From contig NZ_CP017298.1 of assembly GCF_001746855.1 (NCBI RefSeq), forward strand, positions 713,443-748,252: a stretch of 34,810 nt of DNA. The letters are read 5' to 3'. Shown in pieces: positions 7,993 to 32,522 of the stretch. The DNA is from Pauljensenia hongkongensis. Its GTDB lineage: Bacteria > Actinomycetota > Actinomycetes > Actinomycetales > Actinomycetaceae. The position numbers and the translations under genes are program-made. Every line of letters begins with the position of its first letter. The first letter of the stretch is position 1. The notes under the pieces were generated by a model. It saw nothing but the letters and a program-made list of their open reading frames with translations, was not told where the DNA came from and made no database searches.

Positions 7993-9444
7993 ATGACAAC
8001 GTTGTCCCAATCGGACCTCGCCCCCGACTACGACCGTTCCCGCATCACGACGGGCATCGTGCACATGGGCGTCGGCGGCTTCCACCGCGCCCACCAGGCC
8101 GCCTACCTCGACGACCTCATGAGGCGCGGCGAGGCACTGGACTGGGGGATCTGCGGCGTGGGCCTGATGCCGCAGGACACGCGCATGCGTGACGCGCTGC
8201 GCGGCCAGGACTACCTGTACTCCCTCACCCTCAAGCACCCCGGAGGGCGGGCCGAGTCCCGCGTCATCGGGTCGATCCACGACTACCTCTTCGCCCCCGA
8301 CGACCCCGGGGCCGTCCTGGGAGTCATGACCGCGCCGACGACGCGCATCGTGTCCCTGACGGTGACGGAGGGCGGTTACAACGTCGACGACGCCACCGGC
8401 CTGTTCCGCACGGAGTCCGAGGGCGCCGCCCGCGACGCCGCCGATCCGCACCACCCGACGACCAGTTTCGGCTACATCGTGGAGGCCCTGCGCCGGCGCC
8501 GCGACGCCGGCGTCCCCCCGTTCACGGTGATGAGCTGCGACAACCTGCCCGGCAACGGGAAGGTGGCGCGCACGGCCGTCGTGTCGCAGGCGCGGATGAG
8601 CGACCCGGTCTTCGCGCAGTGGATCGACGACAATGTCGCCTTCCCCAACTGCATGGTCGACCGCATCACCCCGCAGACGACGCCCGCGGACATCGAGTCC
8701 GTCCGCGAGCGCCTGGGCGTGGAGGACGCGTGGCCGGTGGTGTGCGAGCCCTTCACGCAGTGGGTTCTGGAGGACCGCTTCACCGACGGGCGCCCGCCCT
8801 TCGAGGACGTCGGCGTGCAGATGGTGTCCGACGTGGTGCCCTACGAGCTCATGAAACTGCGCCTGCTCAACGCCTCGCACCAGGGCCTCGCCCACTGGGG
8901 GCGGCTGTTGGGCATCGAGTACGCGCACGACGCCGCCGCCGATCCGGACATCGCCGCCTGGGTGCGCGCCTACTTGGAGCGCGAGGCCCGCCCGACGCTG
9001 CGGCCCGTGCCCGGCATCGATCTGGACGGGTACGTGGACACGCTCTTCGAGCGCTTCACGAACGAGGCCATCGCCGACACGCTGTTCCGCTTGGCCCAGG
9101 ACGCGTCGAACAGGATGCCGAAGTTCGTGCTGGGCACTGTGCGCGACAACCTGGCATCCGGGGGCCCGATCCGCTTGGGCGCCGCGATGGTGGCCGCGTG
9201 GGCGCTGGGCGATGAGGGCGTCGACGAGGCGGGCGCCCCGATCGCGGTCGACGACCCGGCTGGCGCGCGCCTGCTGGAGCTGGCGGCGGCCCAGAAGGCC
9301 GGTGACGACCGCGCCTTCGTCTCCGACACCGCGGTGTTCGGCGACTTGGCCGGCCAGGAGCGCTTCGTCGAGGAGTTCGCCTCGCAGCTGAGGGCACTGC
9401 GGGCGGAGGGCGCCCGCGCCCGGATGCGGGCGCTCGTCGGCTGA
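7993..9444 (+). CDS. Long-chain mannitol dehydrogenase / fructuronate reductase family protein
   Basis: A 483-aa NAD(P)-dependent polyol dehydrogenase. The ATG at 7993 has AGGAG seven bases upstream; longer readings start in the untranslated leader. The nucleotide-binding motif is GIVHMGVGGFHRAHQAAYLDD (residues ~19-39, the G-x-G-x-F-H-R-A-H form of this family). SCDNLPGNG follows, and the catalytic segment KLRLLNASHQ carries the lysine that acts as general base. The family interconverts a ketose or keto-uronate and its alcohol: fructose/mannitol, fructuronate/mannonate, or tagaturonate/altronate. I cannot separate these by eye. No sugar transporter or kinase lies beside it, and it appears to be a one-gene unit between two hairpins. 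A perfect 12-bp palindrome over codons 2-5 may be an operator. Confidence 0.9.
   Translation: MTTLSQSDLAPDYDRSRITTGIVHMGVGGFHRAHQAAYLDDLMRRGEALDWGICGVGLMPQDTRMRDALRGQDYLYSLTLKHPGGRAESRVIGSIHDYLFAPDDPGAVLGVMTAPTTRIVSLTVTEGGYNVDDATGLFRTESEGAARDAADPHHPTTSFGYIVEALRRRRDAGVPPFTVMSCDNLPGNGKVARTAVVSQARMSDPVFAQWIDDNVAFPNCMVDRITPQTTPADIESVRERLGVEDAWPVVCEPFTQWVLEDRFTDGRPPFEDVGVQMVSDVVPYELMKLRLLNASHQGLAHWGRLLGIEYAHDAAADPDIAAWVRAYLEREARPTLRPVPGIDLDGYVDTLFERFTNEAIADTLFRLAQDASNRMPKFVLGTVRDNLASGGPIRLGAAMVAAWALGDEGVDEAGAPIAVDDPAGARLLELAAAQKAGDDRAFVSDTAVFGDLAGQERFVEEFASQLRALRAEGARARMRALVG
7995..8006. promoter_or_regulatory. LacI-type operator candidate GACAACGTTGTC
   Basis: This is a perfect 12-bp palindrome with central CG that overlaps the first codons of the dehydrogenase gene. 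LacI-family carbohydrate regulators often bind sites of this kind. The core CAACGTTG recurs in the treC leader at 17202-17209. The core also occurs once inside uvrA-like coding DNA near 11790, so chance matches exist. Confidence 0.35.
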
Positions 9445-9459
9445 GCGCGGGCCCGGTGG

Positions 9460-9584
9460 TCCATTTTGCGTCTGAGTCTGACGGTTTCGAGCGGATTCGC
9501 ACGAATCCGGGCAGACTCAGACGCTTTTTGGAACAGCTGCCCCTTGCGCCCCCGTTTCCACCCGGGACTCAGACGCATTGTGGA
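9460..9584. repeat. Three copies of a 19-bp GACTCAGACGC motif
   Basis: The motif GACTCAGACGC-NNNN-TGGA occurs at 9514-9532 and 9566-9584 in direct orientation 52 bases apart, and inverted at 9460-9478. The four N bases differ between copies. Copies one and two form the terminator stem. The third copy makes the set more than a terminator. Confidence 0.6.
9468..9529 (+). terminator. Hairpin terminator after the dehydrogenase gene
   Basis: GCGTCTGAGTCT (9468-9479) pairs perfectly with AGACTCAGACGC (9513-9524), followed directly by TTTTT (9525-9529). The loop contains a second nested hairpin, GGATTCG/CGAATCC (9493-9508). This fits a rho-independent terminator on the plus strand, starting 24 bases after the stop codon. 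Confidence 0.65.
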
Positions 9585-9627
9585 ACTCGGGACGCGCCGC
9601 GAGCAGGGTCCAGTCCCGTGCTGCGGC

Positions 9628-12204
9628 CTAACCCAGGATCCCGGGCCGGGCGGCGCGCAGGTGGCGTCCCGTGACCGAGTCCGGGCGGGCCGCCACGTCA
9701 CGGGGCGCGCCCTGCGCCACGATGCGCCCGCCGTCGGCCCCGCCGCCGGGCCCCATGTCGATCACCCAGTCGGAGTTGGCGATGACGTCCAGGTCGTGCT
9801 CGATGACGACGACGGTGGCACCGCGGTCGATGAGGCGCTGGAGCACGTCGAGGAGGACCTGCACGTCGTCGGGGTGCAATCCGATGGTCGGCTCGTCGAA
9901 GACGAAGAGCGCTCCCTCCTGGCGCCGCCCCATCTCCGAGGCGAGTTTGAGCCGCTGCGCCTCGCCTCCGGACAGTGCGGGCGTGGCCTCGCCGAGCGCC
10001 AGGTAGCCGAGTCCCAAGCCCGACAGGGTGCCGAGCAGCGCGCCCGCTTTCTTCAGGCCCTGCACCGCTCCCCGCGCGTCGTCCACGCTCATGGCCATGA
10101 TGTCGGGCAGGCTAAGCCCGTCGCGCCGGATCCCGTGGGCCTGCGCGCTGTACCTGCTGCCCCGGCAGTCCGTGCACTCGATGTCCACGTCGGGCAGGAA
10201 CTGCACGTCGAGGGTGATCTGGCCGGTCCCGTCGCACGTGGGGCAGCGCAGCGAGCCCGTGTTGTAGGAGAAGGCGCCCGCCTTGAGGCCCGCCGCCCTT
10301 GCCTTCTCAGTGCGCGCGAACGCCCGGCGCAGCTCGTCCAGGACACCGGAGTACGTGGCGACGGTGGAGCGCACATTGACGCCGATGGGCGTCGCGTCGA
10401 TCAGGTTCACCCGCGTCACGCCCGCCGCGTCCACGTCCCGCACGTGCGCGGGCAGCGCCTCCCCCGCCAGGGCCGCGCGCAGGGCGGGCACCAGGGACTC
10501 CAGGACCATCGTCGTCTTGCCCGATCCGCTGACCCCGGTGACCGCCGTGAGCGCTCCCACCGGGATGTCGACGCCCAGGGGGTGGACCGTGTGGATCCGC
10601 GAGGTCTCCAGGTGGATGGCGCCGCGCCCGTCAGCGCCCGCCTCGCCGTGCCCGTCACTGCCTGGGCCGCCGCATTCGTCAGCGCCCGCCTCGCCGTGCC
10701 CGTCCGTTCCCGCGCGCTCCCGGTCCCAGCCCGCCCGGCGCTCCACCCGGCGCCTCCCGGCCAGGTACGGGCCGATACGGGAGGCTGGGGCGGCTGAGGC
10801 CCCGGGGACAGGGCCCTGGTAGACGACGCGTCCGCCGTCCGCGCCCGCGCCCGGGCCGATCTCGATGAGGTGGTCGGCTGCGGCCAGCACCCGGGTGTCG
10901 TGGTCGACCACGACGACGGAGTTCCCATCCTCGATGAGCTCGCGGACGATGTCCAGGACGCCGTCGACGTTGGAGGGGTGCAGGCCGATGGTGGGTTCGT
11001 CCAGGACGTAGAGGACGCCGGTCGTGCGGTTGCGGACAGCGCGGGCCAGCTGCACGCGCTGGCGCTCGCCGTTGGACAGTGTGGAGGAGGCGCGGTCGAG
11101 CGAGAGGTAGGACAGGCCCAGGTCGGCCAGGCGCTCCATGGGCTCGGCCATCTCGTCGACGATGACGCGGGCCATGGGCGCGACCTCGTCGGGGACGAGG
11201 CCGGGCACGCGCGCCGCCCACTCGCGCAGTCCGCTCAGGGTCAGGTGCGAGGCCTGGCCCAAGTCGATGCCGCCGATGAGGGTCGAGCGCACCCGCTCCC
11301 CCAGGCGCGTGCCGTCGCAGGCGGGGCACGTGCGCGTGATGAGGTACTTGCCGACGCGGGCGAGGGCCTTCTCGTCCTTGGCCTTGGCGAGCGCGTTCTC
11401 CACGGTGGCGACCGCGTTGAAGTAGGTGAAGTCCAGTTCCGCGCCGCCCGTCTTCGTGGAGACCACGATGTGCCGTTTCTCGGCGGGCCCCTCGTAGACG
11501 ATGGCCCTCTCCTCCTCGCTGAGGTCGCGGAAAGGCACGTTCGTGCGCACCCCCATCTCGCGTGCGACGTCCTTCATGAGCTTCCACATGAGGGAGCCCC
11601 ACGGCGAGACTGCCCCCTGGTCGATGGTGAGCGACTCGTCGGGCACCAGGGCGGCGCGGTCGACGACGCGTTGGACCCCGGTGCCCTCGCACACGGGGCA
11701 GGCCCCGGTGGAGTTGAAGGCCATCTCCTCGGCGCCCAGTCCGTGGAAGGACTCACCGCACTGGGGGCACACGAGCGGCACTTCCAGGGCAACGTTGCGC
11801 GAGGGCGGCACGCGGTGCCCGCTGGGGCACAGGTAGGAGCCGGCGCGCGAGAACAGCAGGCGCAGGTGGTTGAGCAGCTCCGTGGCCGTGCCGAAGGTGG
11901 AGCGCACGTCGGGCACACCCGGCCTTTGGCGCAGGGCGAGGGCGGCGGGGACGTGGGCGACCCGGTCGACCGGCGCCCTGGCGGCCTGGGAGATGCGCCT
12001 GCGCGTGTAGGTCGCCAGGGACTCCAGGTAGCGGCGGGATCCTTCCGCGTAGAGGGTGCCCAGGGCCAGGGAGGACTTGCCCGACCCGGACACTCCCGCG
12101 ATAGCGACGAAAGAGTTTAAGGGGACGTCGACGTCGAGGTCCTTGAGGTTGTGGACGCGCGCTCCGCGCACTTGGATGCTGGAGGGGGTCGTGCGGTGGG
12201 GCAT
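9628..12204 (-). CDS. uvrA: UvrA-like ABC ATPase lacking the UvrB-binding domain (class II UvrA)
   Basis: I start this 858-aa protein at the ATG at 12204 (MPHRTTPSSIQVRGARVHNL); the frame upstream to 12939 is repeat-rich non-coding DNA. It has two ABC modules: GVSGSGKSS (residues 37-45) with LSNGERQRVQLARA and LDEPTIGLHP, then GVSGSGKTT with LSGGEAQRLKLA and FDEPTIGLHPDD. Zinc-module cysteines are present (CPQCGESF, CPVCEGTG, CPTCDGTG, CTDCRG). After the RLLFSRAG region, where canonical UvrA (~940-950 aa) has a UvrB-binding domain of roughly 110 residues, only a short CPSGHRVPPSRN link remains. This makes it UvrA2/DrrC-like: it may bind DNA or drug-modified DNA but should not load UvrB in the usual way. 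The linker before the second module holds a 16-residue repeat. The gene is convergent with the dehydrogenase gene. Confidence 0.88.
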   Translation of the reverse strand: MPHRTTPSSIQVRGARVHNLKDLDVDVPLNSFVAIAGVSGSGKSSLALGTLYAEGSRRYLESLATYTRRRISQAARAPVDRVAHVPAALALRQRPGVPDVRSTFGTATELLNHLRLLFSRAGSYLCPSGHRVPPSRNVALEVPLVCPQCGESFHGLGAEEMAFNSTGACPVCEGTGVQRVVDRAALVPDESLTIDQGAVSPWGSLMWKLMKDVAREMGVRTNVPFRDLSEEERAIVYEGPAEKRHIVVSTKTGGAELDFTYFNAVATVENALAKAKDEKALARVGKYLITRTCPACDGTRLGERVRSTLIGGIDLGQASHLTLSGLREWAARVPGLVPDEVAPMARVIVDEMAEPMERLADLGLSYLSLDRASSTLSNGERQRVQLARAVRNRTTGVLYVLDEPTIGLHPSNVDGVLDIVRELIEDGNSVVVVDHDTRVLAAADHLIEIGPGAGADGGRVVYQGPVPGASAAPASRIGPYLAGRRRVERRAGWDRERAGTDGHGEAGADECGGPGSDGHGEAGADGRGAIHLETSRIHTVHPLGVDIPVGALTAVTGVSGSGKTTMVLESLVPALRAALAGEALPAHVRDVDAAGVTRVNLIDATPIGVNVRSTVATYSGVLDELRRAFARTEKARAAGLKAGAFSYNTGSLRCPTCDGTGQITLDVQFLPDVDIECTDCRGSRYSAQAHGIRRDGLSLPDIMAMSVDDARGAVQGLKKAGALLGTLSGLGLGYLALGEATPALSGGEAQRLKLASEMGRRQEGALFVFDEPTIGLHPDDVQVLLDVLQRLIDRGATVVVIEHDLDVIANSDWVIDMGPGGGADGGRIVAQGAPRDVAARPDSVTGRHLRAARPGILG
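10630..10704. repeat. In-frame repeat in the linker of the UvrA-like protein
   Basis: An identical 27-bp sequence occurs at 10630-10656 and 10678-10704, exactly 48 bases (16 codons) apart. It encodes DGHGEAGAD twice in the acidic Gly-rich linker between the two ABC modules. It probably arose by slippage and should vary between strains. Confidence 0.8.
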
Positions 12205-12505: not shown

Positions 12506-12601
12506 CGCACGGGCACCAACCCGTGCGGGCGAGACGGCACACCTGAGGGGGCGGGCCCCGCCCCAACGGAAGGGCACCAACCCGTGCGGGCGAGACGGCA
12601 C
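12506..12601. repeat. Direct repeat pair B (30 bp, 61-bp spacing) with hairpin
   Basis: Identical 30-mers lie at 12511-12540 and 12572-12601, separated by 31 bases. The first copy also forms an 8-bp hairpin, CGCACGGG/CCCGTGCG around CACCAA (12506-12527). The second copy has lost the outer half of this stem. Confidence 0.8.
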
Positions 12602-12711
12602 GGCGGCACCACCGGCCACGCGGAATCTCGCGCCACCGGGAGCGCCTCTCCACTTATGCCCTGCCATGCCCCCGGTTTCTCAGTCTTCTTGGGGGTCCAA
12701 GTGGTGCGGAG

Positions 12712-12803
12712 GCGGTCTGAGTCGCGCAGTGGCACCCCGGCACGCAATGCTGAAACTCGCACTCCTCGGTGCGAACGCGGTCTGAGTCGCGCAGTGGCAC
12801 CCC
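12712..12803. repeat. Direct repeat pair C (27 bp, 65-bp spacing)
   Basis: Identical 27-mers begin at 12712 and 12777, each starting GCGGTCTGAGTCGCGCAGTG. They are separated by 38 unrelated bases. Weaker similarity (GGTGCG) extends a few bases upstream of both copies. Confidence 0.8.
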
Positions 12804-12831
12804 TATGGGAAACGCAGTGGTCGGGAGCCCC

Positions 12832-13136
12832 GCATCGGGGCAGGTTGCGGCAGTAGGCGCATCTCCTCGGCTTCCTCCCGCAGTCGATGGACCGCGCATT
12901 GGGGCACCTTACAGTGCATTGGGGCAGGCTACCGTGCATTGGGGTAGGTTACTAGCCTGCCCCAATGGGGGTTAACCTGCCCCAGTAGGTGGTTTCCTGC
13001 CCCAATGCGGGCCCGAGCGCCACCAACTGGGCGAGCACACCGTCCACGCCGCGGTGGTTTCCTGCCCCAATGCGGGCCCGAGCGCCACCTGACGACGTTG
13101 GTCCGCCCGAGGCTGGGTGGTTTCCCGCCCCAATGC
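12832..13136. repeat. Array of nine GCATTGGGGCAGG motifs, six at exact 20-bp spacing
   Basis: The 13-bp motif occurs forward at 12832, 12896, 12916 and 12936 and reversed (CCTGCCCCAATGC) at 12956, 12976, 12996, 13061 and 13124, some copies with one to three changes. From 12896 to 12996 every step is exactly 20 bases. Three forward and three reverse copies therefore face each other around position 12952, where AGGTTACTAGCCT forms the central dyad. The geometry resembles iterons or a cooperative protein-binding array, with sites roughly two helical turns apart. No replication-initiator or partition gene is nearby. Confidence 0.75.
12988..13136. repeat. Direct repeat D (37 bp x2 plus partial third, 63-65-bp spacing)
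   Basis: An identical 37-mer lies at 12988-13024 and 13053-13089, with ends GGTGG and CCACC that can pair. The unrelated spacer is 28 bases. A partial third copy (21 bases, one change) begins at 13116. Each copy embeds one motif of the GCATTGGGGCAGG array. The repeat-spacer-repeat form looks CRISPR-like, but there are too few copies and no cas gene. Confidence 0.75.
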
Positions 13137-13286
13137 TCCCCCTCTTCATCGAGTCCCTGGCTGAGGCGTTGTTCAAGGGCGCCATGACTCTCAAGGACAC
13201 GAACAACGGAGCACGCCGCCCCCGGCGACGCGCCATAAGCCGGGCGCACACAGACCCGGAGGGCACTAAGAACCCGCCGACTCAGT

Positions 13287-13322
13287 GCTGGCCAATAGCC
13301 GGGCGCTGGCCAATAGCCGGGC
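13287..13322. repeat. 18-bp tandem duplication
   Basis: GCTGGCCAATAGCCGGGC is present twice without a gap (13287-13304 and 13305-13322). It sits next to the hairpin that ends the trehalose operon. Confidence 0.85.
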
Positions 13323-13354
13323 GCGCGGGCCGGACCCAGGCCCAGCCCGCGCGC
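13321..13354 (-). terminator. Hairpin terminator of the trehalose operon
   Basis: GCGCGCGGGC (13321-13330) pairs perfectly with GCCCGCGCGC (13345-13354) around a 14-base loop. It begins about 30 bases beyond the stop of the PTS gene. There is no U tract. Confidence 0.5.
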
Positions 13355-13384
13355 CCCGCCGCGGTAGTCGTAGTGGTCGGGCCG

Positions 13385-15496
13385 CTACTCCTTCTTGGCG
13401 GCCTCGCGGTTGCCCAGGCGGACCTTCTCAACGGTCCTGCCCTGGCCGAAGTCGTCCTCCTTGAACCCGAAGAAGTAGGTGCACACGAAGGCGACGGCGA
13501 GCGCCACGAAGGACGCGATCCAGAAGTTGACGGCGGAGGAGGTGTCCTTGCCGGTGGGGTCCACGAAGGACGCGAACCCGGTGAACGCCCCGGCGAAGCC
13601 GTACATGTTGATGTTGAGCAGGCCGGTGACCAGGCCGCCGGCGGCCCCGCCGACCGAGGCGGTGAGGAAGGCGCGCCCGTACTTGAGGTTGAGGCCGTAC
13701 ATGGCGGGCTCGGTGACCCCGCAGAACGCGGAGATCGTGGCGGGACCGGCCAGGGAGCGGATCTTCGCGCTGCGGGCCTTGATCCAGAAGGCCAGGGCGC
13801 CGCCGCCCTGCGCGATCATCGTGGCGGACACGATGGCGTTGATCGTGGAGGACTGCCCGTGGACGGCAAGCTGCTGGGCGATCACGGGGATCACGGCCCA
13901 GTGCAGGCCGAAGATCACGAGGCACTGGTAGAAGGCGCCGATGACGAGGCCCGCGAAGGCGTAGTTGATGGCCAGCACCCAGTTCAGCCCGGCCGCGACG
14001 CCGCCGGAGACGAACATGATGATGGGTCCGAAGACGGTGAACAGCAGCGTGGAGATCACGAAGATCTCGATGAGCGGGGCGAAGATGGAGTGGACCACGG
14101 CGGGGATCCACTTCTTGAGCAGGGGCTCGATCTTGGACGCCAGCCACGCCCCCACGATGATCGGGAAGATCGAGTAGGCGTAGGCGTTGTCCAGCGGCAG
14201 GGAGATGGGGATCCCGAAGAGTTCCGCGTTGAAGTTCACGCCCAGCAGCGTGTGCAGCACGTGGTACCCGGGAGCATCGTGCTTGGCCAGCTGGACGATC
14301 GACGGGTAGGCCAGGACGCCGCCGATGATCGCGACGATGATCGGGTCGGCGCCCAGGCGCTTGGCGGCCGTGAAACCGATGATGATGGGCAGGAAGAAGA
14401 ACATCGAGTCCGCCATCGCGTTGAGGATGATGTTCGTGTCGGAGTCCTTCACCAGCCAGCCGACCTGGACCAGCAGGCCCAGCAGGCCCTTGAGGATGCC
14501 CGATCCGGCCAGGACGCCGACGACGGGGATCATCGACCCGGTGATGACGCCGATCAGAGAGCTGAACCCGTACTTCACCCAGCCCAGGGGGGTGGTGGGC
14601 TTCTCGACGGGGTCGGCCGCCGCCTCGTCGTCCCCGGCCGCGCCCTGCGGGAGCCGCTTGACGATCTCCTGGTAGACGTCGCCGACGGTGGCGCCGATGA
14701 CGACCTGGTACTGCCCGCCGGCCTTGGCGACGTCGATGACGCCGTCGATGTCGGCGACGGCCGCGTCATCGGCCTTGGCGTCGTCCTTGAGGTAGAAGCG
14801 CACGCGGGTGATGCAGTGGATGACGGAGGCGACGTTGTCCGCGCCGCCGATGCCGTCGATGATGCGGACGGCCTGCAGGGCGAACCCGGTCAGGCCCTCG
14901 TAGCCGTCGTCCGCCTCGACGGCGGCGCCCGCCGCTTCCGGTGCGGTTCCCGACGACGCGGCGCTGGTGCCGGACGAGGCGGGGGCCGCCTCCGCCTGGG
15001 CGGGCGCGGCAGGAGCGGCGGCCTTGAGGAGGGCGTCGGCGACGGGGTCGCCGGCCTGGGCCCGGCCGGTCCGCACGTCGAGGGACTCCACGCGCTTCTT
15101 GGAGTTGGTGATGACGGTGATGGCGACCGTGGACTTACCGGCGGCCTCGACGGCGGCCAGATCCATCGTCCCGACCGGGCCGCCCGCCTGCACGGTGTCG
15201 CCCTTGGCGACGACGAGGCGGAAGGGCGCGCCCTTGAGCTCGACGGTGTCGACGCCCAGGTGGAGCAGCACCTGCAGCCCGTCGGCGGTTTCGAAGCCGA
15301 CGGCGTGGCCGGTGTCGGCCACCATCGTGATCCGCCCTGAGACGGGGGCCACGACCGTGTTCTCCTCGGGGACCACACCGAAGCCGACGCCCATGGCGCC
15401 CCCGGCGAATGCGGGGTCGGGGATGTCGGCCTGGGCGATGACGTCGCCCGGCATCGGGGCGAGCAGTGACGCCCTCTGCTGTGGTGATTCGGACAT
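13385..15496 (-). CDS. treB: Trehalose-type PTS permease, EIIA-EIIB-EIIC fusion
   Basis: A 703-aa PTS transporter of the glucose/beta-glucoside superfamily. The ATG at 15496 has AAAGGAAC just upstream. Domains run A-B-C. The EIIA (Crr-like) domain covers residues ~1-140, with both active-site histidines in DTGHAVG (H64) and LLHLGVDT (H79). An Ala/Pro/Ser linker (155-195) follows. EIIB covers ~200-285, with phosphorylated Cys228 in HCITRVRF. EIIC is a multi-span membrane domain with GVTEPAMYGLNLKYG, the substrate-loop signature. It should import and phosphorylate a disaccharide. Trehalose is inferred from the partner gene, a trehalose-6-phosphate hydrolase ending 34 bases upstream. The classical TreB/TreP proteins have B-C only and borrow an external IIA, so the N-terminal IIA is notable. 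Sucrose or another glucoside is a less likely substrate. Confidence 0.88.
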   Translation of the reverse strand: MSESPQQRASLLAPMPGDVIAQADIPDPAFAGGAMGVGFGVVPEENTVVAPVSGRITMVADTGHAVGFETADGLQVLLHLGVDTVELKGAPFRLVVAKGDTVQAGGPVGTMDLAAVEAAGKSTVAITVITNSKKRVESLDVRTGRAQAGDPVADALLKAAAPAAPAQAEAAPASSGTSAASSGTAPEAAGAAVEADDGYEGLTGFALQAVRIIDGIGGADNVASVIHCITRVRFYLKDDAKADDAAVADIDGVIDVAKAGGQYQVVIGATVGDVYQEIVKRLPQGAAGDDEAAADPVEKPTTPLGWVKYGFSSLIGVITGSMIPVVGVLAGSGILKGLLGLLVQVGWLVKDSDTNIILNAMADSMFFFLPIIIGFTAAKRLGADPIIVAIIGGVLAYPSIVQLAKHDAPGYHVLHTLLGVNFNAELFGIPISLPLDNAYAYSIFPIIVGAWLASKIEPLLKKWIPAVVHSIFAPLIEIFVISTLLFTVFGPIIMFVSGGVAAGLNWVLAINYAFAGLVIGAFYQCLVIFGLHWAVIPVIAQQLAVHGQSSTINAIVSATMIAQGGGALAFWIKARSAKIRSLAGPATISAFCGVTEPAMYGLNLKYGRAFLTASVGGAAGGLVTGLLNINMYGFAGAFTGFASFVDPTGKDTSSAVNFWIASFVALAVAFVCTYFFGFKEDDFGQGRTVEKVRLGNREAAKKE

Positions 15497-23889: not shown

Positions 23890-24246
23890 ATGGCTGGAGC
23901 TTTCGAAGATTTCGATCAGATGATCGCTGACGCGCAGCGGCGCGTGTCGGAGAACGCCCGGGCGGGGGCGCGTTTCAGACGGGCCAGCGAGGGGATGGTG
24001 GGGCGCGGGCGCGCCCTGGGCGGCGAAGTCGCGGTGGAGGTGGACGCCTCGGGCGCGCTGGTGCGCTGCGCTTTCGGGCGGGGCGCCCAGCGTGTCTCCC
24101 TGTCGCGCTTGGGCGCCGGGGTGGTGGAGGCGTACACGGCGGCGCGGGCGGACGCTCTCGCCGGGGTGCGCGGGGCCGCTGTGGAGGCGTTCGGGGCGGA
24201 CAACCCGATCCTGGCCCCCTTGATGGGGGGTGGGGACGGTGAGTGA
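23890..24246 (+). CDS. YbaB/EbfC-like small protein of a type VII-associated locus
   Basis: A 118-aa protein. The pattern GEVAVEVDASGALVRCAF followed by a helix VVEAYTAARADALAGVR fits the YbaB/EbfC fold: a central antiparallel sheet flanked by helices that forms dimers. In actinobacteria, YbaB-like genes often stand directly before WXG100/ESX-type effector genes, as here; they may be chaperones or regulators and need not bind DNA. The N-terminus (AFEDFDQMIADAQRRVSENAR) is a predicted long helix. There is no Shine-Dalgarno sequence before the ATG, and a promoter-like -10 ends seven bases ahead, so leaderless translation is likely. The next gene starts inside its last codons. Codon use is GC-rich. 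Confidence 0.75.
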   Translation: MAGAFEDFDQMIADAQRRVSENARAGARFRRASEGMVGRGRALGGEVAVEVDASGALVRCAFGRGAQRVSLSRLGAGVVEAYTAARADALAGVRGAAVEAFGADNPILAPLMGGGDGE

Positions 24247-24556
24247 GGAACTGCGGGTCAACACGGACATGCTGCGCTCCTACGCGGCGCGCGTGGACGC
24301 GACCGCCGACCAGGTGTCGCAGGCCCAGTGGGCGGTGGGCTCCTTGAACACCATCGGGGCGCTGGGGGTGTTGTGCGCGCCGCTCCTGGGGCCGGCGGTC
24401 GGCTTCGTCGAGGCGGGGGCGCGCTCGTGCATCGACGCGACGGGCCAGGGCCTGGGGCGCATGTACGAGCTCCTGGGGCGCACGGCCCAGGTCTACGACG
24501 CGGTGGAGGCGCAGATCGCCGAGGACCTGCGCGCGATCATGGAGCGCCTGCCGTGA
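24239..24556 (+). CDS. EspC/WXG100-like type VII secretion partner
   Basis: A 105-aa helical protein. I prefer the GTG at 24239, which overlaps the end of the preceding gene and has a GGGG-rich site; a GTG at 24230 would add three residues. The sequence SEELRVNTDMLRSYAARVDATADQVSQAQWAV forms one amphipathic helix, and MYELLGRTAQVYDAVEAQIAEDLRAI forms a second, joined by a Gly/Pro-rich turn. This helix-turn-helix hairpin of about 100 aa is the ESX/EspC design of type VII substrates and partners. No classic W-x-G is present; SLNTIGALG lies at that place. It probably pairs with the N-terminal domain of the effector downstream to form a secretion signal. The stop overlaps the GTG of that gene. 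Confidence 0.75.
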   Translation: MSEELRVNTDMLRSYAARVDATADQVSQAQWAVGSLNTIGALGVLCAPLLGPAVGFVEAGARSCIDATGQGLGRMYELLGRTAQVYDAVEAQIAEDLRAIMERLP

Positions 24557-26343
24557 GCGGCGGGGAGGCGCTGACCACTGCTGACGTGCCCGGCGGGGCG
24601 GTCGGCGGCAGCGGGAACCCCGGCAGCACCCTGGTAGCCGAGCGCCAGGACGCGCGCAGCGGCTTCGAGGGCCTGGGCATCATCGAGGACGGGCACGCCC
24701 TGGTGGAGGCCATCCAGGGCGGCAGCTGGATGGGCACCGCGCTGGGGGTCGCGTTCACGGGGTTGGACGTGGCGTCCGCCGTCTCGGATCCCATTGGCAC
24801 CCTCATCTCGATGGGCCTCGGCTGGGCACTGGAGTGGGTGTGGCCCTTCAACGAGCTGTTCAACGCCCTGGCCGGGGACGCGGCGCAGGTGGAGGCGAAC
24901 GCGCAGACGTGGGAGAACGTGGCCATGGCCCTGGGGGCCGCCGGCGCGCAGTTGGAGGAGGACACGGCCACGTGCCTGTCCGACATGGCCGGGGACGGGG
25001 TCGAGGCGATCCGGACCTCGGCCGGCGGCGTGGCGGAGCACGTGCAGGCGGCTTCCCAGTGGGCGCAGGCCATGGCGGACGGCCTGCGCATGGCGTCGGG
25101 CATCGTCCAGGTGGTGCACGACGTGGTGCGCCAGGCGATATCGGATCTGATCGGCACGATCTGCTCGGTGGCCATCGAGGAGGCCTGCACCCTGGGTCTG
25201 GCCACCGCCTTGGTCGTCGAGCAGATCACCACCCGGGTCGCCGCGTTGTCGACCCACGTCTTCGAGGCCATCGGCCATTTGAAGACCGTGTTCTCCAGTT
25301 TCCACGGGCTCCTGTCGGAGCTGGGGCGCTTGTGGAACACGCTCACCGGGGCGATCAGCTCCATGTTCCACCGGGGGGCCGCCGCACTGACGCCCCACGG
25401 CCCCGTGGCGGGCGCGACTGCGGCCATCGGAATCGGCGGCGCCCCGCACGGCGTTCACGGCCCGCACGCCTCTGCCCAGCCCACTCCCCCGCCCCATGCC
25501 AAAGACCCCGTGAAGGACGAGCCCCTGGTCTTCCCCGAGCGCAAGCCGTGGAAGGACACGAAGAGGGAGAAACCCGACGAGTCCCACAACGGCGCCAAAT
25601 GGGGCGAGGGGCGCGACCAGGCCCAGCTCAACACACTGAGGGACGCCCGTGTCGAGACCAAGCAGCACATCAAAGACCTGGAGGCGGAACTCCGCGCCCA
25701 CGGGGTGGATCCCAAGGACGCGACGATAAACACCATTGAAGCCACAATCGCACGGCTCAAAAAAGAGCACCGGCCAGTGTTCGAACGAGAAACGATCATC
25801 CGCCTCGCCGATGATTTGTCCCACGCCCGCGGAAGATACTCAGCACTTGGCGAAGAAGTCGGAATCGTTGGAGCAGAATCCAAACTGGAAAGCCAGGGAA
25901 TGGAGCTCCTCCCCAACACCGGGGGCGCTGGTGCGGGGAACGGCAGCGGCGACATCTACGCGACCGCCCTAGACAAGGAAGGCAATCACCAAGCCTTCCA
26001 CGTGGTGGAGGCCAAAGGATACAGTAGCAAACTGGGGACGCGACTGGTCGACGGAACACCCTTCAAACAGGGGTCCCCCACATACGTGCGCGACATCATG
26101 CTCAACGACACCCAGCTGCACGACGCACTGGCCAGGAACGCCGCACTCCGCGAAGCCATACTCAAAAGAGAGATCCCGGTGATCGCGGACGTATACCGCA
26201 CCCGCCACCCGTACATGTCCTGCGTCACCCTGCAACAGACAAAGGCCGTACCCCTCGACGACGACTTCATAAAGAAGCTGGAAAAGATCCTCAAGGGACA
26301 CCCCGCATACGCGCCTTTCCCACCCTCAAAACCCACCCCCTGA
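24553..26343 (+). CDS. Type VII-type polymorphic toxin with C-terminal PD-(D/E)XK-like nuclease domain
   Basis: A 596-aa effector starting at a GTG (24553) that overlaps the previous stop. Residues ~30-270 are Ala-rich helices of WXG/LXG-effector type (TWENVAMALGAAGAQLEED; hydrophobic LIGTICSVAIEEACTLG). Residues ~280-380 are a Pro/His/Gly then Lys-rich linker. The toxin domain spans ~395-596: LGEEVGIVGAES, GNGSGDIYATALD with D467, HVVEAKGYSS with E486 and K488, then QGSPTY, VYRTRHPYMS. D followed by E-x-K after a beta strand is the PD-(D/E)XK nuclease pattern, so DNA or RNA cleavage in rival cells is the likely role (inference). No secretion machinery lies in the window. From about 25720 codons become markedly richer in A/T, marking the toxin cassette as newer than the N-terminus. 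Confidence 0.82.
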   Translation: MSGGEALTTADVPGGAVGGSGNPGSTLVAERQDARSGFEGLGIIEDGHALVEAIQGGSWMGTALGVAFTGLDVASAVSDPIGTLISMGLGWALEWVWPFNELFNALAGDAAQVEANAQTWENVAMALGAAGAQLEEDTATCLSDMAGDGVEAIRTSAGGVAEHVQAASQWAQAMADGLRMASGIVQVVHDVVRQAISDLIGTICSVAIEEACTLGLATALVVEQITTRVAALSTHVFEAIGHLKTVFSSFHGLLSELGRLWNTLTGAISSMFHRGAAALTPHGPVAGATAAIGIGGAPHGVHGPHASAQPTPPPHAKDPVKDEPLVFPERKPWKDTKREKPDESHNGAKWGEGRDQAQLNTLRDARVETKQHIKDLEAELRAHGVDPKDATINTIEATIARLKKEHRPVFERETIIRLADDLSHARGRYSALGEEVGIVGAESKLESQGMELLPNTGGAGAGNGSGDIYATALDKEGNHQAFHVVEAKGYSSKLGTRLVDGTPFKQGSPTYVRDIMLNDTQLHDALARNAALREAILKREIPVIADVYRTRHPYMSCVTLQQTKAVPLDDDFIKKLEKILKGHPAYAPFPPSKPTP

Positions 26344-26352
26344 GAACAACAC

Positions 26353-26381
26353 TGGAAGAAAACGCCGACACAGAGTAGAAT
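26353..26381 (+). promoter_or_regulatory. Candidate private promoter of the first immunity gene
   Basis: TAGAAT (26376-26381) is a strong -10 box eight bases before the ATG at 26390. Only a weak -35 (TGGAAG, 26353-26358) lies 17 bases upstream. No ribosome-binding site is seen, so the transcript would be leaderless. This would let immunity be made without the toxin. Confidence 0.45.
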
Positions 26382-26389
26382 CATAGACT

Positions 26390-26914
26390 ATGAGCACCAC
26401 ACTCAACGCATACCCTACGGACCGTTTCATCGAAATCGTCAAAGCCTGGGTCAACCACCCTTGGCCGATTACTTCTGACGAGGGGCAGGCTATATACGAG
26501 AGTCTCGGCCTCCGCGGGTACGCTCCGCGCCCGAACTTCTTCTGGTCCGACTTTTCCACGGACGACGAACCCGACTCATACTACGTCGTCACACAGGATC
26601 AAATTAGTACTATCGACCTGGAAGTCGCGAAACTCACCCTTCCCGAAAATGAGGTTGGCAACGATTCGACGCTCTGCGACACGTATACCCAATACTGCGC
26701 CGCTATTGATAGCGCATTCGATGGCGGCGCAACAAAGCATGTGATCCATGACAAGGCGATCGAATGGACGTTTTATAACGATGTCCGAATCAGGATCGAA
26801 AACATCGACTTCGCATTGTCTTTTATTATCCGCTCACCTCGCATGACCCAATTGCGTCGCAAAGAGGAAGAAATGGGCCTGACCAGCTACGACGAGATCC
26901 TCGAGGACGACTGA
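26390..26914 (+). CDS. Immunity-like protein 1 (toxin-adjacent)
   Basis: A 174-aa acidic protein and the first of eleven tandem paralogues. It lies 46 bases after the toxin, the usual place of a cognate immunity gene. It has the family plan: a conserved start YPTDRFIEIVKAWVNHPWPI, a variable middle, a conserved EPDSYYVV element, EWTFYNDVRIRI, and a conserved end SPRMTQLRRKEEEMGLTS then an EDD tail. There is no signal or membrane segment, so it is cytoplasmic. Its N-terminus MSTTLNAYP differs from most paralogues but resembles the other toxin-adjacent copy at 29789 (MNSTTFQSYP). Codons are A/T-rich compared with the chromosome. I do not recognise a named immunity family; the role is inferred from position and from being multicopy. 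Confidence 0.8.
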   Translation: MSTTLNAYPTDRFIEIVKAWVNHPWPITSDEGQAIYESLGLRGYAPRPNFFWSDFSTDDEPDSYYVVTQDQISTIDLEVAKLTLPENEVGNDSTLCDTYTQYCAAIDSAFDGGATKHVIHDKAIEWTFYNDVRIRIENIDFALSFIIRSPRMTQLRRKEEEMGLTSYDEILEDD

Positions 26915-26930
26915 AGAGGACATTCAGCCC

Positions 26931-27461
26931 GTGACACAGCGCCTCGCCGGATTCGAAGCCTACCCAACAGATCGCTTCATTGAAATAGTCGAAGCATGGG
27001 TCAACCACCCTTGGCCGATTGCTTCTGACGAGGGGCAGGCTATATACAAGAGCCTAGGTCTCCGCGGGTACGCTCCGCGCCCGAACTTCTTCTGGTCCGA
27101 TTTCTCCACGGACAAGGAACCAGACTCCTACTACGTCGTCACGCGGGATCAAGTCAGCGTGATCGACATGGAAATGGCGCGACTCCTCCCCGACGGGGAA
27201 GCCAGCGACGATTCACCACTCTATGAGATATATACCCGGTACTGCAACGCCATCGACACGGTATTCAATGGAAACGCAACAAAACATCCAGTTCACGACA
27301 AAGCGACCGAATGGACGTTTCATAACGATGTCCGAATCAGGATCGCGAACATCGATATCGCGATATCCTTAGTTATCCATTCACCACGCATGACCCAATT
27401 GCGCCGCGAAGAAGAGGAAATGGGCTTGACCAGCTACGACGATATCCTCGAGGACGACTGA
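26931..27461 (+). CDS. Immunity-like protein 2
   Basis: A 176-aa paralogue starting at GTG 26931 after a 16-base junction (type A: AGAGGAC...TTCAGCCC). Residues ~25-75 are almost the same as in protein 1 (GQAIY-SLGLRGYAPRPNFF, then WSDFSTD), whereas the middle (MARLLPDGEASDDSPLYEIY) has diverged. The N-terminus MTQRLAGFEAYP is the type-A form. The tail EEEEMGLTSYDDILEDD is conserved. It probably arose by duplication of gene 1 with replacement of the start by a type-A end. The cognate toxin is unknown; it may be a spare immunity gene against a variant of the toxin. Confidence 0.78.
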   Translation: MTQRLAGFEAYPTDRFIEIVEAWVNHPWPIASDEGQAIYKSLGLRGYAPRPNFFWSDFSTDKEPDSYYVVTRDQVSVIDMEMARLLPDGEASDDSPLYEIYTRYCNAIDTVFNGNATKHPVHDKATEWTFHNDVRIRIANIDIAISLVIHSPRMTQLRREEEEMGLTSYDDILEDD

Positions 27462-27477
27462 AGAGGACGTTCAGCCC

Positions 27478-28011
27478 ATGACGCAGAACCCCGCCAGATT
27501 CGAAGCCTACCCAACAGATCGCTTCGTTGAAATAGTCGAAACATGGGTCAACCACCCTTGGCCCATAACCACAGAAGAGGCGAAAGAAATATACGAAAGC
27601 ATCGGCTACCGCCCCTACATCCCAGATCCGAGTTTGTTCGCATCAGATTTGTCAAAAGACGGCGAACCGGACTCTTACTACACACAAAGTGACGGTTGCA
27701 TAAACACGGTCAACATAACAGTTACGAGACAAGGAGAAAAAGGGACTGAGAGACATAATGCAGACAAAATTGAGAAGATATACAAACAGTACTGTAACGC
27801 GATTGACACCCTTGTTTCGAAACGACTTATCCTACGACATCAACAGGATTCCGCAACTGAGTGGTTCATCGACAATAATGTGAACATAAGAGTCGGAAAC
27901 CCTGGACACAGGGTAACGTTTTCCGTCTCCTCGCCGGCCATGACCCAGTTGCGTCGCGAGGAGCAGGAAATGGGCTTGACCAGCTACGATGAGATCCTCG
28001 AGGACGACTGA
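27478..28011 (+). CDS. Immunity-like protein 3
   Basis: A 177-aa paralogue with ATG after a type-A 16-base junction. The N-terminus MTQNPARFEAYPTDRFVEIV and the tail LRREEQEMGLTSYDEILEDD are conserved. The middle is the most divergent in the first block: YRPYIPDPSLFASDLSKDG, then QGEKGTERHNADKIEKIY and a Lys/Arg-rich stretch near SKRLILRHQQDS. The DNA is strongly A/T-rich for this genome, for example around 27660-27800. Conserved EPDSYYTQ and EWFIDNNVNIRV elements are present. It is cytoplasmic by sequence. Its middle has no close partner among the other ten, which suggests a different specificity. Confidence 0.78.
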   Translation: MTQNPARFEAYPTDRFVEIVETWVNHPWPITTEEAKEIYESIGYRPYIPDPSLFASDLSKDGEPDSYYTQSDGCINTVNITVTRQGEKGTERHNADKIEKIYKQYCNAIDTLVSKRLILRHQQDSATEWFIDNNVNIRVGNPGHRVTFSVSSPAMTQLRREEQEMGLTSYDEILEDD

Positions 28012-28027
28012 AGAGGACGTTCAGCCC

Positions 28028-28558
28028 ATGACGCAGCGCCCCACCAGATTCGAAGCCTACCCAACAGATCGCTTCATCGAAATCGTTAAGACATGGATCG
28101 ACCGCCCATGGCCCATCACCTCGAAAGACGGAAGGATAATATTCGAGGATTTAGGGTACTCAGTCGATTCAGAAGACCCGGGGATGTTCGCGTCACCATT
28201 TGCGGAACAAGAACCGGATTCCTACTTTATCGTTCGGAACGGGCTTATTGACGACATTGATGTCGCAGTATCCACAATATGCACAAGAGAGTCCATGAAA
28301 GAAAACGCAGCCGCGATGGAGAGAACCTACGACACGTATTGCAAAGCGGTAAGCGGCGCATACCCTGAAGCATTATCAAGAAGAGATAGGACACACAACG
28401 CGGTCGAATGGTTCTTTAAGAATGACGCACAAATTAGACTCAGCAACATCGGGATCACTATTTCATTCTACATACACTCACCGCGTATGACCCAATTGCG
28501 CCGCGAGGAGCAGGAAATGGGCTTGACCAGCTACGGCGAGATCCTCGAGGACGACTGA
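28028..28558 (+). CDS. Immunity-like protein 4
   Basis: A 176-aa paralogue. I start at the ATG at 28028, which sits at the standard place after the type-A junction; the frame is open 39 bases further upstream only because it overlaps the end of gene 3. The middle IIFEDLGYSVDSEDPGMFAS resembles the gene at 31973 (LFEDLGYAVDSEEPEMFLS), so these two are closer to each other than to their neighbours. The element EPDSYFIVRNGLIDDID and the element EWFFKNDAQIRL are the family's. The tail has a single change, SYGEILEDD for SYDEILEDD. Confidence 0.78.
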   Translation: MTQRPTRFEAYPTDRFIEIVKTWIDRPWPITSKDGRIIFEDLGYSVDSEDPGMFASPFAEQEPDSYFIVRNGLIDDIDVAVSTICTRESMKENAAAMERTYDTYCKAVSGAYPEALSRRDRTHNAVEWFFKNDAQIRLSNIGITISFYIHSPRMTQLRREEQEMGLTSYGEILEDD

Positions 28559-28574
28559 AGAGGAAATTCAGCCC

Positions 28575-29102
28575 ATGACGCAGCGCCCCACCAGATTCGA
28601 AGCCTACCCAACAGATCGCTTCATCGAGATTATCAAAGCCTGGGTCAACCACTTTTGGCCCATGACATCAGCAGAAGCTCAAGAACTGTACGAAAGCTTT
28701 GGATACCGCGCTTACGCACCGAAACCGGAGCTATTTATTTCAGACTTTTCGCAGATAGAGCCCGACTCCTACGTCACCACACACAATGATCGCGTAGGCG
28801 ACGCACGCATTTCAATGTCCCACCCATGCGACACTGTGACACCACAGAACACAGACACGATCTCCCGCACGTTCAGCGATTACTGCACCGCCATCGAAGA
28901 CAAGCTCAAAGACATGATTTCACACCGCAAGAGCGAAAGGAACGCAGTCAGGTGGACACTACGCAACGGTGTTGACATTCGTTTAGCGAAACTATCGAGA
29001 AATATTTCAGTTTTCATCGGATCACCTCGTATGACCCAGTTGCGTCGCGAAGAGGGAGAAATGGGCTTGACCAGATACGACGAGATCCTCGAGGACGATT
29101 GA
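28575..29102 (+). CDS. Immunity-like protein 5
   Basis: A 175-aa paralogue, last of the first block, with type-A junction and N-terminus MTQRPTRFEAYPTDR. The middle has DRVGDARISMSHPCDT, MISHRKSERNAVRWTL and IRLAKLSRNISVF, shared in pattern with the gene at 30336 (NRVGNVRISVSRPCAA; SQRKTEESSIRWTL; IRLAKLPRNISL). The two therefore form a pair on either side of the detached toxin domain. The tail is EEGEMGLTRYDEILEDD. After its stop comes a perfect 16-bp palindrome, and then the toxin fragment in place of another immunity gene. Confidence 0.78.
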   Translation: MTQRPTRFEAYPTDRFIEIIKAWVNHFWPMTSAEAQELYESFGYRAYAPKPELFISDFSQIEPDSYVTTHNDRVGDARISMSHPCDTVTPQNTDTISRTFSDYCTAIEDKLKDMISHRKSERNAVRWTLRNGVDIRLAKLSRNISVFIGSPRMTQLRREEGEMGLTRYDEILEDD

Positions 29103-29104
29103 GC

Positions 29105-29120
29105 GGAGCACCGGTGCTCC
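29105..29120. repeat. Perfect 16-bp palindrome GGAGCACCGGTGCTCC
   Basis: It lies three bases after the stop of immunity-like gene 5, at the left edge of the detached toxin cassette. No other junction in the array has it. It may be a small transcript hairpin or a mark of the insertion event. Confidence 0.6.
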
Positions 29121-29167
29121 AGACTTGAGACCACCACTAGGGAAGAGAAGAAACGAGGATTCGAGGA

Positions 29168-29782
29168 GTGGACACCACCAACGTGACACGGACGCGCATA
29201 AGGCGCACACTCAGGCAGATGGCGAACAACCGGAGCCCGATCACGGAGCAGCGCCGCATCGAGCACATCGCCGACGCCCTGGCCCACGAGCAGGGCGAGT
29301 ACACCAGGCTCGGCGAGGAAGTCGGCATCGTGGGCGCCGAGTCCTCCCTGGAGCGCGAGGGGATGGTAATACTCCCCGGCATCGACGGCCCCAACGAGGG
29401 GAACCACAGCGGCGACATCTACGCCGTCGCCTACGACGAGGACTCCAGGCCCCGTTCCCTCCACGTGGTCGCGGCCAAGGGGTACTCGCACAGGCTGAGG
29501 ACGCGGCCAGTCGACGGCGCCTCCGCCACGCAGGGCTCCCCGGAGTACGCGTGCCACCTCATGCTCACAGACCGGTGCCTCCACGCCGCCCTCGCCAAAG
29601 ATCCCGTTCTGCGCCGGGGAATACTCGACGGCAGCGTCGAAGTCATCACCGACGTGTACCGCACGCCGTACCCTTACATGTCGAGCGTCATCCACCTGAG
29701 CGCCATCCCCGTCCCCCTCGACCGGGCCTACGCCTCCACGCTCCAGGGCCTCGTGAGGCAGCACCCGGACTACACCGAGTAG
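29168..29782 (+). CDS. Detached toxin C-terminal module with E-to-A change in the ExK motif
   Basis: A 204-aa frame with GTG start (29168); GAGG at 29155-29158 could serve as ribosome-binding site. It has no N-terminal secretion part. It is homologous to the last ~190 residues of the effector at 24553: LGEEVGIVGAES, GMVILPG, HSGDIYAVAYD (D83), HVVAAKGYS, TQGSPEY, VYRTPYPYMSS. The E486 of the intact toxin corresponds to A102 here (codon GCG at 29471), while K104 is kept. If the PD-(D/E)XK reading is right, the nuclease is probably inactive. It is GC-rich, unlike most of the array but like the immunity gene six bases downstream, so the two likely moved and aged together. It may be a silent cassette available for recombination into the effector gene, or a remnant. 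Confidence 0.8.
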   Translation: MDTTNVTRTRIRRTLRQMANNRSPITEQRRIEHIADALAHEQGEYTRLGEEVGIVGAESSLEREGMVILPGIDGPNEGNHSGDIYAVAYDEDSRPRSLHVVAAKGYSHRLRTRPVDGASATQGSPEYACHLMLTDRCLHAALAKDPVLRRGILDGSVEVITDVYRTPYPYMSSVIHLSAIPVPLDRAYASTLQGLVRQHPDYTE

Positions 29783-29788
29783 AGCACA

Positions 29789-30319
29789 ATGAACAGCACC
29801 ACATTCCAGTCCTACCCTGTGGACCACTTCATCAGCATCGTTCAAGCCTGGGTCCACCAGGCATGGCCCATCACCACGGCGCACGGCCGACGAGTGTACG
29901 AATCCCTCGGCATGAGGCCCCACGCCGCCGATCCCGGCCTCTTCATGTCCCACTTCGCGGTGGGCGGCGAGCCCGACGCGTACTTCACGGAACACGAGGG
30001 CCTCATCAACACGGTCCGCATGCAGATCGGCCACCCGTGCCCTCCTGGAACCGAAGGGCAGAACGGGCCCGTTATCGCCCAGTACTTCACCGCGTACTAC
30101 GGTTCAATCGAACAGGCATTCGGGCCGAGCACGCTCATGCGCAGGCGAAAGGACGACGGGGCAATCGACTGGATCCTGGACAACAACGTCGGAATCAGCC
30201 TCGGCCCCCTCAGCCACTCGATCATCCTGTTCATCGACTCCCCCACCATGACGCAGCTGCTCCGCGAGGAGGAGGAGAACGGCCTGACCAACTACAACGA
30301 CATCCTCGAAGACGACTGA
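29789..30319 (+). CDS. Immunity-like protein 6 (adjacent to detached toxin module)
   Basis: A 176-aa paralogue starting six bases after the stop of the detached toxin module. Its N-terminus MNSTTFQSYPVDHF matches the toxin-adjacent protein 1 rather than the MTQ/MPQ forms of the rest, which suggests that this N-terminus travels with toxin genes. Base composition is GC-rich like the module before it. The middle MRPHAADPGLFMSHFAVGGE and HPCPPGTEGQNGPVIAQYF is unlike other copies. EPDAYFTEHEG replaces the usual EPDSY. The tail is EEEENGLTNYNDILEDD, with N for M at one position. It is probably the cognate immunity for the detached toxin sequence. Confidence 0.8.
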   Translation: MNSTTFQSYPVDHFISIVQAWVHQAWPITTAHGRRVYESLGMRPHAADPGLFMSHFAVGGEPDAYFTEHEGLINTVRMQIGHPCPPGTEGQNGPVIAQYFTAYYGSIEQAFGPSTLMRRRKDDGAIDWILDNNVGISLGPLSHSIILFIDSPTMTQLLREEEENGLTNYNDILEDD

Positions 30320-30335
30320 GCAGAACGGAAAAGGC

Positions 30336-30863
30336 ATGCCACAGCACCCCACCGCCTTCGAGGCCTACCCCGTAGACCGCTTCAGCGAAATCATCGAAGC
30401 CTGGATCACGCATCCATGGCCGATGACACCAATACAAGCCAAAGAGCTCTACGAAAGTCTCGGGTACCGCGTTCACACCCCAAAACCAAGACTATTCTTC
30501 TCAGAGTTCGCTCAGGAGGAACCCGATTCTTTCTTCACAGCGCAGCACAACCGAGTAGGGAACGTGCGGATCTCTGTATCTCGTCCATGCGCTGCACGGA
30601 CACAACAGGATGAGAACCACATCTCACACGTATTCACAGAGTACTGTGTCATCATCGACAGCAGTCTCAGAGACTCGATCTCCCAGCGCAAGACAGAGGA
30701 AAGCTCCATTAGATGGACCCTTGATAAGGATATCGAAATCCGACTGGCAAAGCTACCGAGGAACATTTCACTCAGAATCGCGTCGCCACGCATGACACAG
30801 CTGCTCCGCGAGGAAAGGGAAATGGGCTTGACCTGCTACGACGAGGTCCTCGAGGATGACTGA
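30336..30863 (+). CDS. Immunity-like protein 7
   Basis: A 175-aa paralogue following a type-B junction (AGCAGAACGGAAAAGGC) and carrying the type-B N-terminus MPQHPTAFEAYPVDRFSEII. The middle (RVHTPKPRLFFSEFAQEEPD, NRVGNVRISVSRPC, IRLAKLPRNISLRI) resembles protein 5 at 28575, though the leaders differ, which shows that middle and ends have been shuffled. The tail EEREMGLTCYDEVLEDD has small changes. Cytoplasmic, no other motif. Confidence 0.78.
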   Translation: MPQHPTAFEAYPVDRFSEIIEAWITHPWPMTPIQAKELYESLGYRVHTPKPRLFFSEFAQEEPDSFFTAQHNRVGNVRISVSRPCAARTQQDENHISHVFTEYCVIIDSSLRDSISQRKTEESSIRWTLDKDIEIRLAKLPRNISLRIASPRMTQLLREEREMGLTCYDEVLEDD

Positions 30864-30878
30864 GCAGAAAGGAAAAAC

Positions 30879-31409: not shown

Positions 31410-31425
31410 GCAGAACGGAGAAGGC

Positions 31426-31956: not shown

Positions 31957-31972
31957 AGAGGAGATTAAGTCC

Positions 31973-32506: not shown

Positions 32507-32522
32507 GCAGAACGGAGAAGGT

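Follow-up and report, generated by a model that had tools for sequence, protein, structure and literature searches.

Tandem protein sites about two helical turns apart are characteristic of plasmid iterons and partition sites, and in mycobacteriophage L5 many dispersed asymmetric stoperators are recognised by one silencer protein. The arrays described here share with iterons and partition sites the tandem sites at about two helical turns, but they are dispersed in dozens on a chromosome, their sites face inward, and no rep or par gene was found among the neighbours examined. They differ from stoperators, which are single sites in a phage genome, in being phased and facing and in lying on a bacterial chromosome. 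DtxR/IdeR boxes, which we take to resemble the GGATAGGTTA arrays in the 7-mer TAGGTTA and in a period near 19 bp, offer a lead only; they have another central spacing and a promoter location, and form no six-site arrays. A further likeness is to the REP, BIME and REPIN sequences of Escherichia coli and Pseudomonas, which are likewise dispersed intergenic inverted repeats present in tens of lineage-specific copies, growing in tandem and occupying codirectional and convergent gaps. Here, in contrast, no RAYT-type transposase was found, several sites at a 19/20-bp pitch replace the single hairpin, and the half-site arms do not covary. REPINs are described, in the text drawn on here, as doublets forming hairpins (PMC3116915). 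According to the portion of PMC3733652 drawn on here, a CGTC-tagged class of REPs apparently has no dedicated transposase and shows the same gap preference as the arrays; the arrays thus resemble it in being REP-like without a known mobiliser, but that portion describes short tagged hairpins and no phased six-site layout.

Searches of a PMC collection by title and abstract returned nothing that describes such arrays. To our knowledge, no bacterium has been described that keeps dozens of strictly phased, facing arrays of protein sites between gene ends.

The array under study belongs to a window, the whole stretch of 34,810 nucleotides that was analysed, and is flanked there by two minus-strand genes, one for a PTS EIIABC transporter and one UvrA-like, which are separated by 1.18 kb (Table 1). 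Direct reading together with repeat and site scans confirmed what the sequence-only reading had described: six 13-bp motifs at 20-bp steps, three facing three, with a dyad at 12952 and extra copies 63–65 bases off on both sides, which were located at 12832, 13061 and 13124 (64, 65 and 63 bases). At two mismatches or fewer the window holds 14 sites, 9 of them at the array, against a mean of 5.7 per window after resampling, and no tandem pair at +20 arose across 300 dinucleotide resamplings of the window. The PTS gene has its own hairpin shortly after its stop, so that the array lies beyond that hairpin. Genes were called with our own codon-model caller, and their starts are approximate. Reading of the window at 24230-33053 also showed a small ORF, a large ORF that may encode a polymorphic toxin and, after these, a tandem series of eleven paralogous ORFs, each about 175 aa long and perhaps an immunity gene.

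Table 1. Positions of the array components and flanking features in the window
Feature	Position	Strand	Basis or remark
UvrA-like gene, 858 aa (ABC_tran, UvrA_DNA-bind)	9628..12204	-	start faces array
Outlying half-site, 64 bases left	12832..12844	+	repeat and site scans
Outer left half-site GCATTGGGGCACC	12896..12908	+	reading, site scan; ends CC, not GG
Middle left half-site GCATTGGGGCAGG	12916..12928	+	reading, repeat scan
Inner left half-site GCATTGGGGTAGG	12936..12948	+	reading, repeat scan
Centre TTACTAG, 7 nt	12949..12955	no strand	
Inner right half-site	12956..12968	-	reading, repeat scan
Middle right half-site, 2 changes	12976..12988	-	reading, site scan
Outer right half-site	12996..13008	-	reading, repeat scan
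Outlying half-site, 65 bases right, within 37-bp direct repeat	13061..13073	-	repeat scan
Outlying half-site, another 63 bases to the right	13124..13136	-	repeat and site scans
Strong hairpin, ~20-bp stem, ~25 bp past PTS stop	13316..13359	-	likely terminator
PTS transporter EIIABC gene	13385..15454	-	end faces array; ORF start possibly 15538

Judged by sequence, the window comes from a member of Schaalia closely related to S. georgiae DSM 6843 (G149), and aligned array flanks are mostly 92–97% identical between the two genomes. The window's genome (G000; 2.14 Mb, listed as 70.5% complete, with N runs in some retrieved loci) matches the facing, palindromic pattern at 40 places and the tandem pattern at 65 and 72 places on its two strands, each at three mismatches or fewer, while the reversed-pattern controls gave 0. 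The loci retrieved from it, selected because they hold arrays, contain at least 40 clusters of this family, termed A, with at least 282 half-sites at two mismatches or fewer; 100 of the 137 tandem places entered this count, which may therefore lack arrays whose centre is poor. Over the 282 sites the half-site consensus is CATYGGGGYAGGnAA, with high information at 12 bases and the AA and low information in the variable spacers. At least two sites face two others at 19–20-bp steps around a 7-nt centre in 38 of the 40 counted clusters; the inner right site is degraded in one of the remaining two and the outer left in the other, and one cluster contains two cores. All 90 occurrences of the 12-mer CATTGGGGTAGG in the retrieved sequence of this genome fall between called genes and none inside one, the window array being counted twice (the window and locus L083 hold the same array, and both entered the 12-mer, lag-20 and 60–66-bp-lag counts). 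Isolated sites with at most one mismatch number 7, against 282 sites in arrays, in these array-selected loci, a distribution unlike the single scattered copies, also within genes, of a DNA uptake sequence.

The count in the genome and its relatives that the sequence-only reading had proposed gave matches to the A pattern in 3 of 213 family genomes, with 40 facing matches in the window's genome, 28 in DSM 6843 and 1 in G159. The scatter of unphased sites that would have marked an ordinary repeat did not appear: the sites are dispersed, but in phased arrays. Exact facing cores were found only in S. georgiae DSM 6843 (21 stretches), in a database that may omit the records nearest the window's own, and both genomes have an array at 15 flank-matched pairs, the two arrays frequently differing greatly in their outer parts and spacers; these pairs were drawn from array-holding loci and do not estimate how frequently positions are shared. 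A blastn search of plasmids and phages with window 12820-13140 gave no match, and Rfam gave a single chance match (mir-1451, 30 bits against a gathering score of 85, E 0.64). In the viral contig collection the facing pattern was absent and the tandem pattern matched one contig, with an analogous but different motif. That contig (L075, IMGVR_UViG_3300028608_000022) has a long stretch of TATTGGGGTAGGGGCAAC at 9376-10325, in 20-bp tandem and facing order, together with TTTTCGGAATATTCCGAAA palindromes, and four of its ten proteins match PHROGs of unknown function.

In the 40 arrays of the window's genome, 132 of 200 same-direction intervals measure 20 bp, and a 19-bp step is near-universal in 34 arrays from other species, orthologous copies included. 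Larger arrays of the window's genome extend on one side in blocks that have no partner arm, with intervals near 32–35, 43–44, 52 and 61–65 bp. The 31 intervals of at least 28 bp sit near whole helical turns (R 0.76 at 10.5 bp; Rayleigh p ~1e-8, the values not being independent). For those of 61–65 bp, phasing is not separable from a general excess of duplications at that lag, which may be their origin. Unrelated sequences also repeat at a 60–66-bp lag in array-bearing gaps of G000 and G149 (for example window 12506-12601 and 12703-12803), where, with the arrays masked, this lag makes up 33–34% of lags against 14% expected; it makes up 21–25% in array-free gaps and 15–18% in genomes G148 and G159. 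A CRISPR-like 60-bp tandem repeat with identical spacers adjoins an A array at L104 3878-4087.

Two versions of half-site and pitch characterise two lineages, CATYGGGGYAGG at 20 bp and CATCYGGATAGG at 19 bp. The second version, with the core GGATAGG, emerged from sampled stretches of G159, in which a motif-free 60-bp self-identity scan found two arrays; counting at lag 20 alone had given no excess in G148 or G159. The same scan of G148 returned two 19–20-bp stretches with other motifs, AACCCCTTGATACGCACG (L132 ~2430) and TGCACCCGATCAG with an inverted copy (L145 ~6170). Centres of the form GGATAGG-N7-CCTATCC, counted with at most one mismatch and without checking arrays individually, number 14–46 per genome in ten genus genomes and 1–2 in three, with 0 in the remaining ones, including G000 and G149, and at most 1 in the control. 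With these ten, G000 and G149, 12 of the 35 genus genomes carry one version in numbers. The 20 GGATAGG loci retrieved were selected for arrays, with orthologous gaps of several species counted separately, and hold 34 arrays (clusters of at least three sites without mismatch; A clusters were counted at two mismatches or fewer). Ten read exactly >(19)>(19)>(14)<(19)<(19)<, and this arrangement, with three sites on each side of a 7-nt centre facing inward at exact 19-bp steps, is the commonest in the retrieved loci; the window array has the same layout with a pitch of 20 bp instead of 19 bp. G159 has both versions, with 16 GGATAGG centres and one A array. The A centres also vary, being mostly of the CAA-n-TTG type in the window's genome and most commonly TTAnTAA in DSM 6843. 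Of the 35 genus genomes, 12 have the centre AGGTTAnTAACCT, at 2–21 copies each (21 in G149, only 3 in G000; control 0 of 35), and outside the genus 1–2 copies occur in 9 of 178 family genomes, the control also reaching 1–2 in some. No protein flanking an A array (245 proteins; S. georgiae) matched one flanking a sampled GGATAGG array (154) at 50% identity, which indicates that the two sets occupy different places as far as compared, and suggests dispersal rather than a fixed function at fixed sites.

Other repeat families accompany the arrays. Family B consists of inverted arrays with the centre GTTATAAC / CTTTGCAAGYGTTATAACRCTTGCAAAG and arms like GGTATCGCTGTGAAAAC (for example L100 4242, L104 4492 and L095 3754); G000 has 8, all of them no further than about 300 bp from an A array, and G149 has 24, of which a hand count places 15 at about 450 bp or less from an A array; the search of the remaining 33 genus genomes gave 0. 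These species also have at least two more motifs with a 19–20-bp pitch, and the array build seems to be a class rather than one motif. Family C has GTTGYCGACAC units at 19–20 bp, in reverse TGTCRACAAC (L082 3875-4081, L094 2500-2680), and family D has units of about 20 bp with CTAAGTGGYG (L110 5690-5780, L104 880-990, L108 4780-4900, and also in G159).

The arrays favour gaps between convergent genes. In the window's genome, array-bearing gaps are convergent in 14 cases, codirectional in 21 and divergent in 2, compared with 12, 62 and 30 for other gaps (convergent to divergent 14:2 versus 12:30, Fisher p=7e-5), and they are long (median 738 versus 242 bp). The preference is weak in DSM 6843 (7:2 versus 15:24, p=0.06) and strong in other species (17:1 versus 50:96, p=8e-7, with orthologous gaps counted repeatedly); in evenly sampled stretches of G148 and G159, all five arrays lie in convergent gaps. 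Along the chromosome of the window's genome, in which the origin and parAB were not located, the at least 40 arrays do not depart from a uniform spread (KS p=0.14). Neighbours examined against Pfam are mostly ordinary genes, several proteins being without any family; a TetR-type regulator and an MFS transporter lie between two A arrays (L094), and the single A array of G159 has a phosphatase, an anti-sigma factor and a sigma factor as neighbours.

These data bear on the proposal, made from the window alone, of cooperative protein binding as in iterons, partition sites or multi-site operators. Cooperative binding as such gains indirect support from the 19/20-bp pitch, the conserved half-site and the lack of the covariation expected of RNA stems; the three specific comparisons fare less well. 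An iteron is not supported by at least 40 dispersed arrays and by a window array whose neighbours, uvrA-like and PTS genes, include no replication initiator, nor is a partition site by arrays spread over the chromosome among mostly ordinary neighbours. A multi-site operator is unlikely in general because the arrays avoid divergent promoter gaps.

Conservation could be followed at two orthologous places. An array near a class II tRNA-synthetase gene (domains tRNA-synt_2b and HGTP_anticodon; we take it for HisRS) is present in four species, a set picked because the array flanks looked alike. Its inner half-sites agree at 28/28 positions and its spacers at 21–23/24, compared with 16–37/80 in ungapped flanks; one species lacks one right unit and has more left units. 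In a gapped alignment three parts are well kept, namely the array, a hairpin that follows the upstream gene and the sequence leading up to the synthetase gene; alignment between them is poor, and conservation of the array far exceeds that of most of the gap. In three species an array separates the genes for ribosomal protein L9 and a penicillin-binding protein and stands between two hairpins, read as the genes' own terminators. Most of that gap is conserved (mean column identity 91%), and the case therefore says little about selection for the array.

Fixed pitch, base-specific half-sites and one-sided growth in near-helical steps favour protein binding to double-stranded DNA, and on this basis we give about even chances to the view that the window array is one of many dispersed copies of an array bound by protein as double-stranded DNA, the copies being preferably placed at convergent gene ends. 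An origin as REP/REPIN-like mobile DNA, in which non-autonomous palindromes would be copied in trans by a putative enzyme and persist at gene ends because insertions there are least harmful, is a lesser but real possibility. The copies are dispersed, extragenic and palindromic, with lineage-specific numbers; arrays of the window's genome are missing at three orthologous places in DSM 6843; A and GGATAGG arrays had no common flanking genes in the places compared; and some arrays share flanking sequence. Against such an origin, no target duplication was seen by eye at two of the empty DSM 6843 sites, the old four-species copy with its locus-specific spacers stays conserved over diverged sequence, and a Y1 RAYT-type transposase (PF01797) was found in 0 of 35 genus genomes, the window's 70.5% complete genome included, compared with 5 of 14 controls. 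The compensatory arm changes of REPs are absent: half-sites of the A arrays do not covary (p=0.31 inner, 0.97 outer), which, like the fixed pitch, is unexpected for a single-stranded DNA hairpin. REP hairpins may carry GTAG or CGTC as a terminal tag; in the arrays GTAG/GCAG, by reading, stands inside most half-sites instead of at one hairpin end, which may bear on kinship with REPs either way. Four array groups surround an IS256-family (Transposase_mut) gene at L194 7120-10798 of G162. The matching region of G143 (L199) has arrays and apparently no such gene, in a genome with 19 family matches in all; an IS256-family mobiliser is rejected, since G159 has none yet carries 16 GGATAGG centres, and G000 has none either. 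Spread in the past and maintenance in place now can both be partly true.

A bidirectional terminator or mRNA 3'-end stabiliser, formed by a long hairpin in the transcript, is improbable. The window array folds strongly as RNA (-76.6 kcal/mol, z -6.3), which facing repeats tend to do, and the arrays favour gene ends, some being only 20–54 bp away from one. Mismatched pairs in 24 codirectional arrays are more frequently G-U than A-C in the transcribed sense (53 versus 32, p=0.03), in keeping with what is expected of an RNA element; no single part is significant. Despite the strong fold, this hairpin reading was rejected on the half-sites without covariation. The 7-nt A centre does covary (p=0.002), as DNA dyads and hairpins both would; GGATAGG arrays show covariation in neither half-sites nor centre. 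The last four spacer nucleotides are complementary in 19 of 164 pairs, less than the 59 expected by chance, which is read as descent from one asymmetric copy. The window array, the only one so compared, has no terminator-like match, that is, no hairpin with a U tract near a stop. The one-sided extensions also speak against a transcript hairpin, as do hairpins (stem of at least 11) belonging to the genes themselves, which precede the array at 15 of the 33 gene ends in loci of other species (4 in shuffled sequence), at 4/5 in G148, 1/3 in G159 and only 10/39 in G000 (6 in shuffled sequence), and median distances of 232–450 bp between array and gene end in four sets (gene ends at least 60 bp away). 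Even less probable is a wrapping site for a topoisomerase or nucleoid protein, a phased, bendable and symmetric stretch of about 110 bp that would attract gyrase or a similar enzyme between convergent genes. BIMEs are bound by gyrase or IHF, and BIME-2 attracts gyrase where positive supercoils accumulate between convergent genes, and the length, symmetry, helical phasing and convergent placement of the arrays would suit such a role; a 12–15-bp half-site that is conserved base by base and differs between lineages exceeds what bendability needs.

Under the favoured reading of a double-stranded protein-binding array, a sequence-specific protein would bind each half-site and assemble cooperatively from the centre outwards into a rigid row. 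The position near gene ends suggests that this row would serve as an insulator, roadblock or anchor in the intergenic gap. More tentatively, the arrays may belong to a genus-wide system in which a polymerising putative DNA-binding protein occupies inward-facing six-site arrays mainly near gene ends, and whose specificity, motif and pitch may have switched together (GGATAGG at 19 bp versus GGGGYAGG at 20 bp) in the S. georgiae lineage, the array set being re-established at new places.

If mobile, the arrays would be a REP-like population without the REP transposase. If bound as proposed, they would constitute a defined boundary element of bacteria, and its natural variation in motif (two), pitch (two) and number of sites would be material for testing how a row of protein reads helical phase. 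They would also provide a case of a whole set of sites changing together with its protein.
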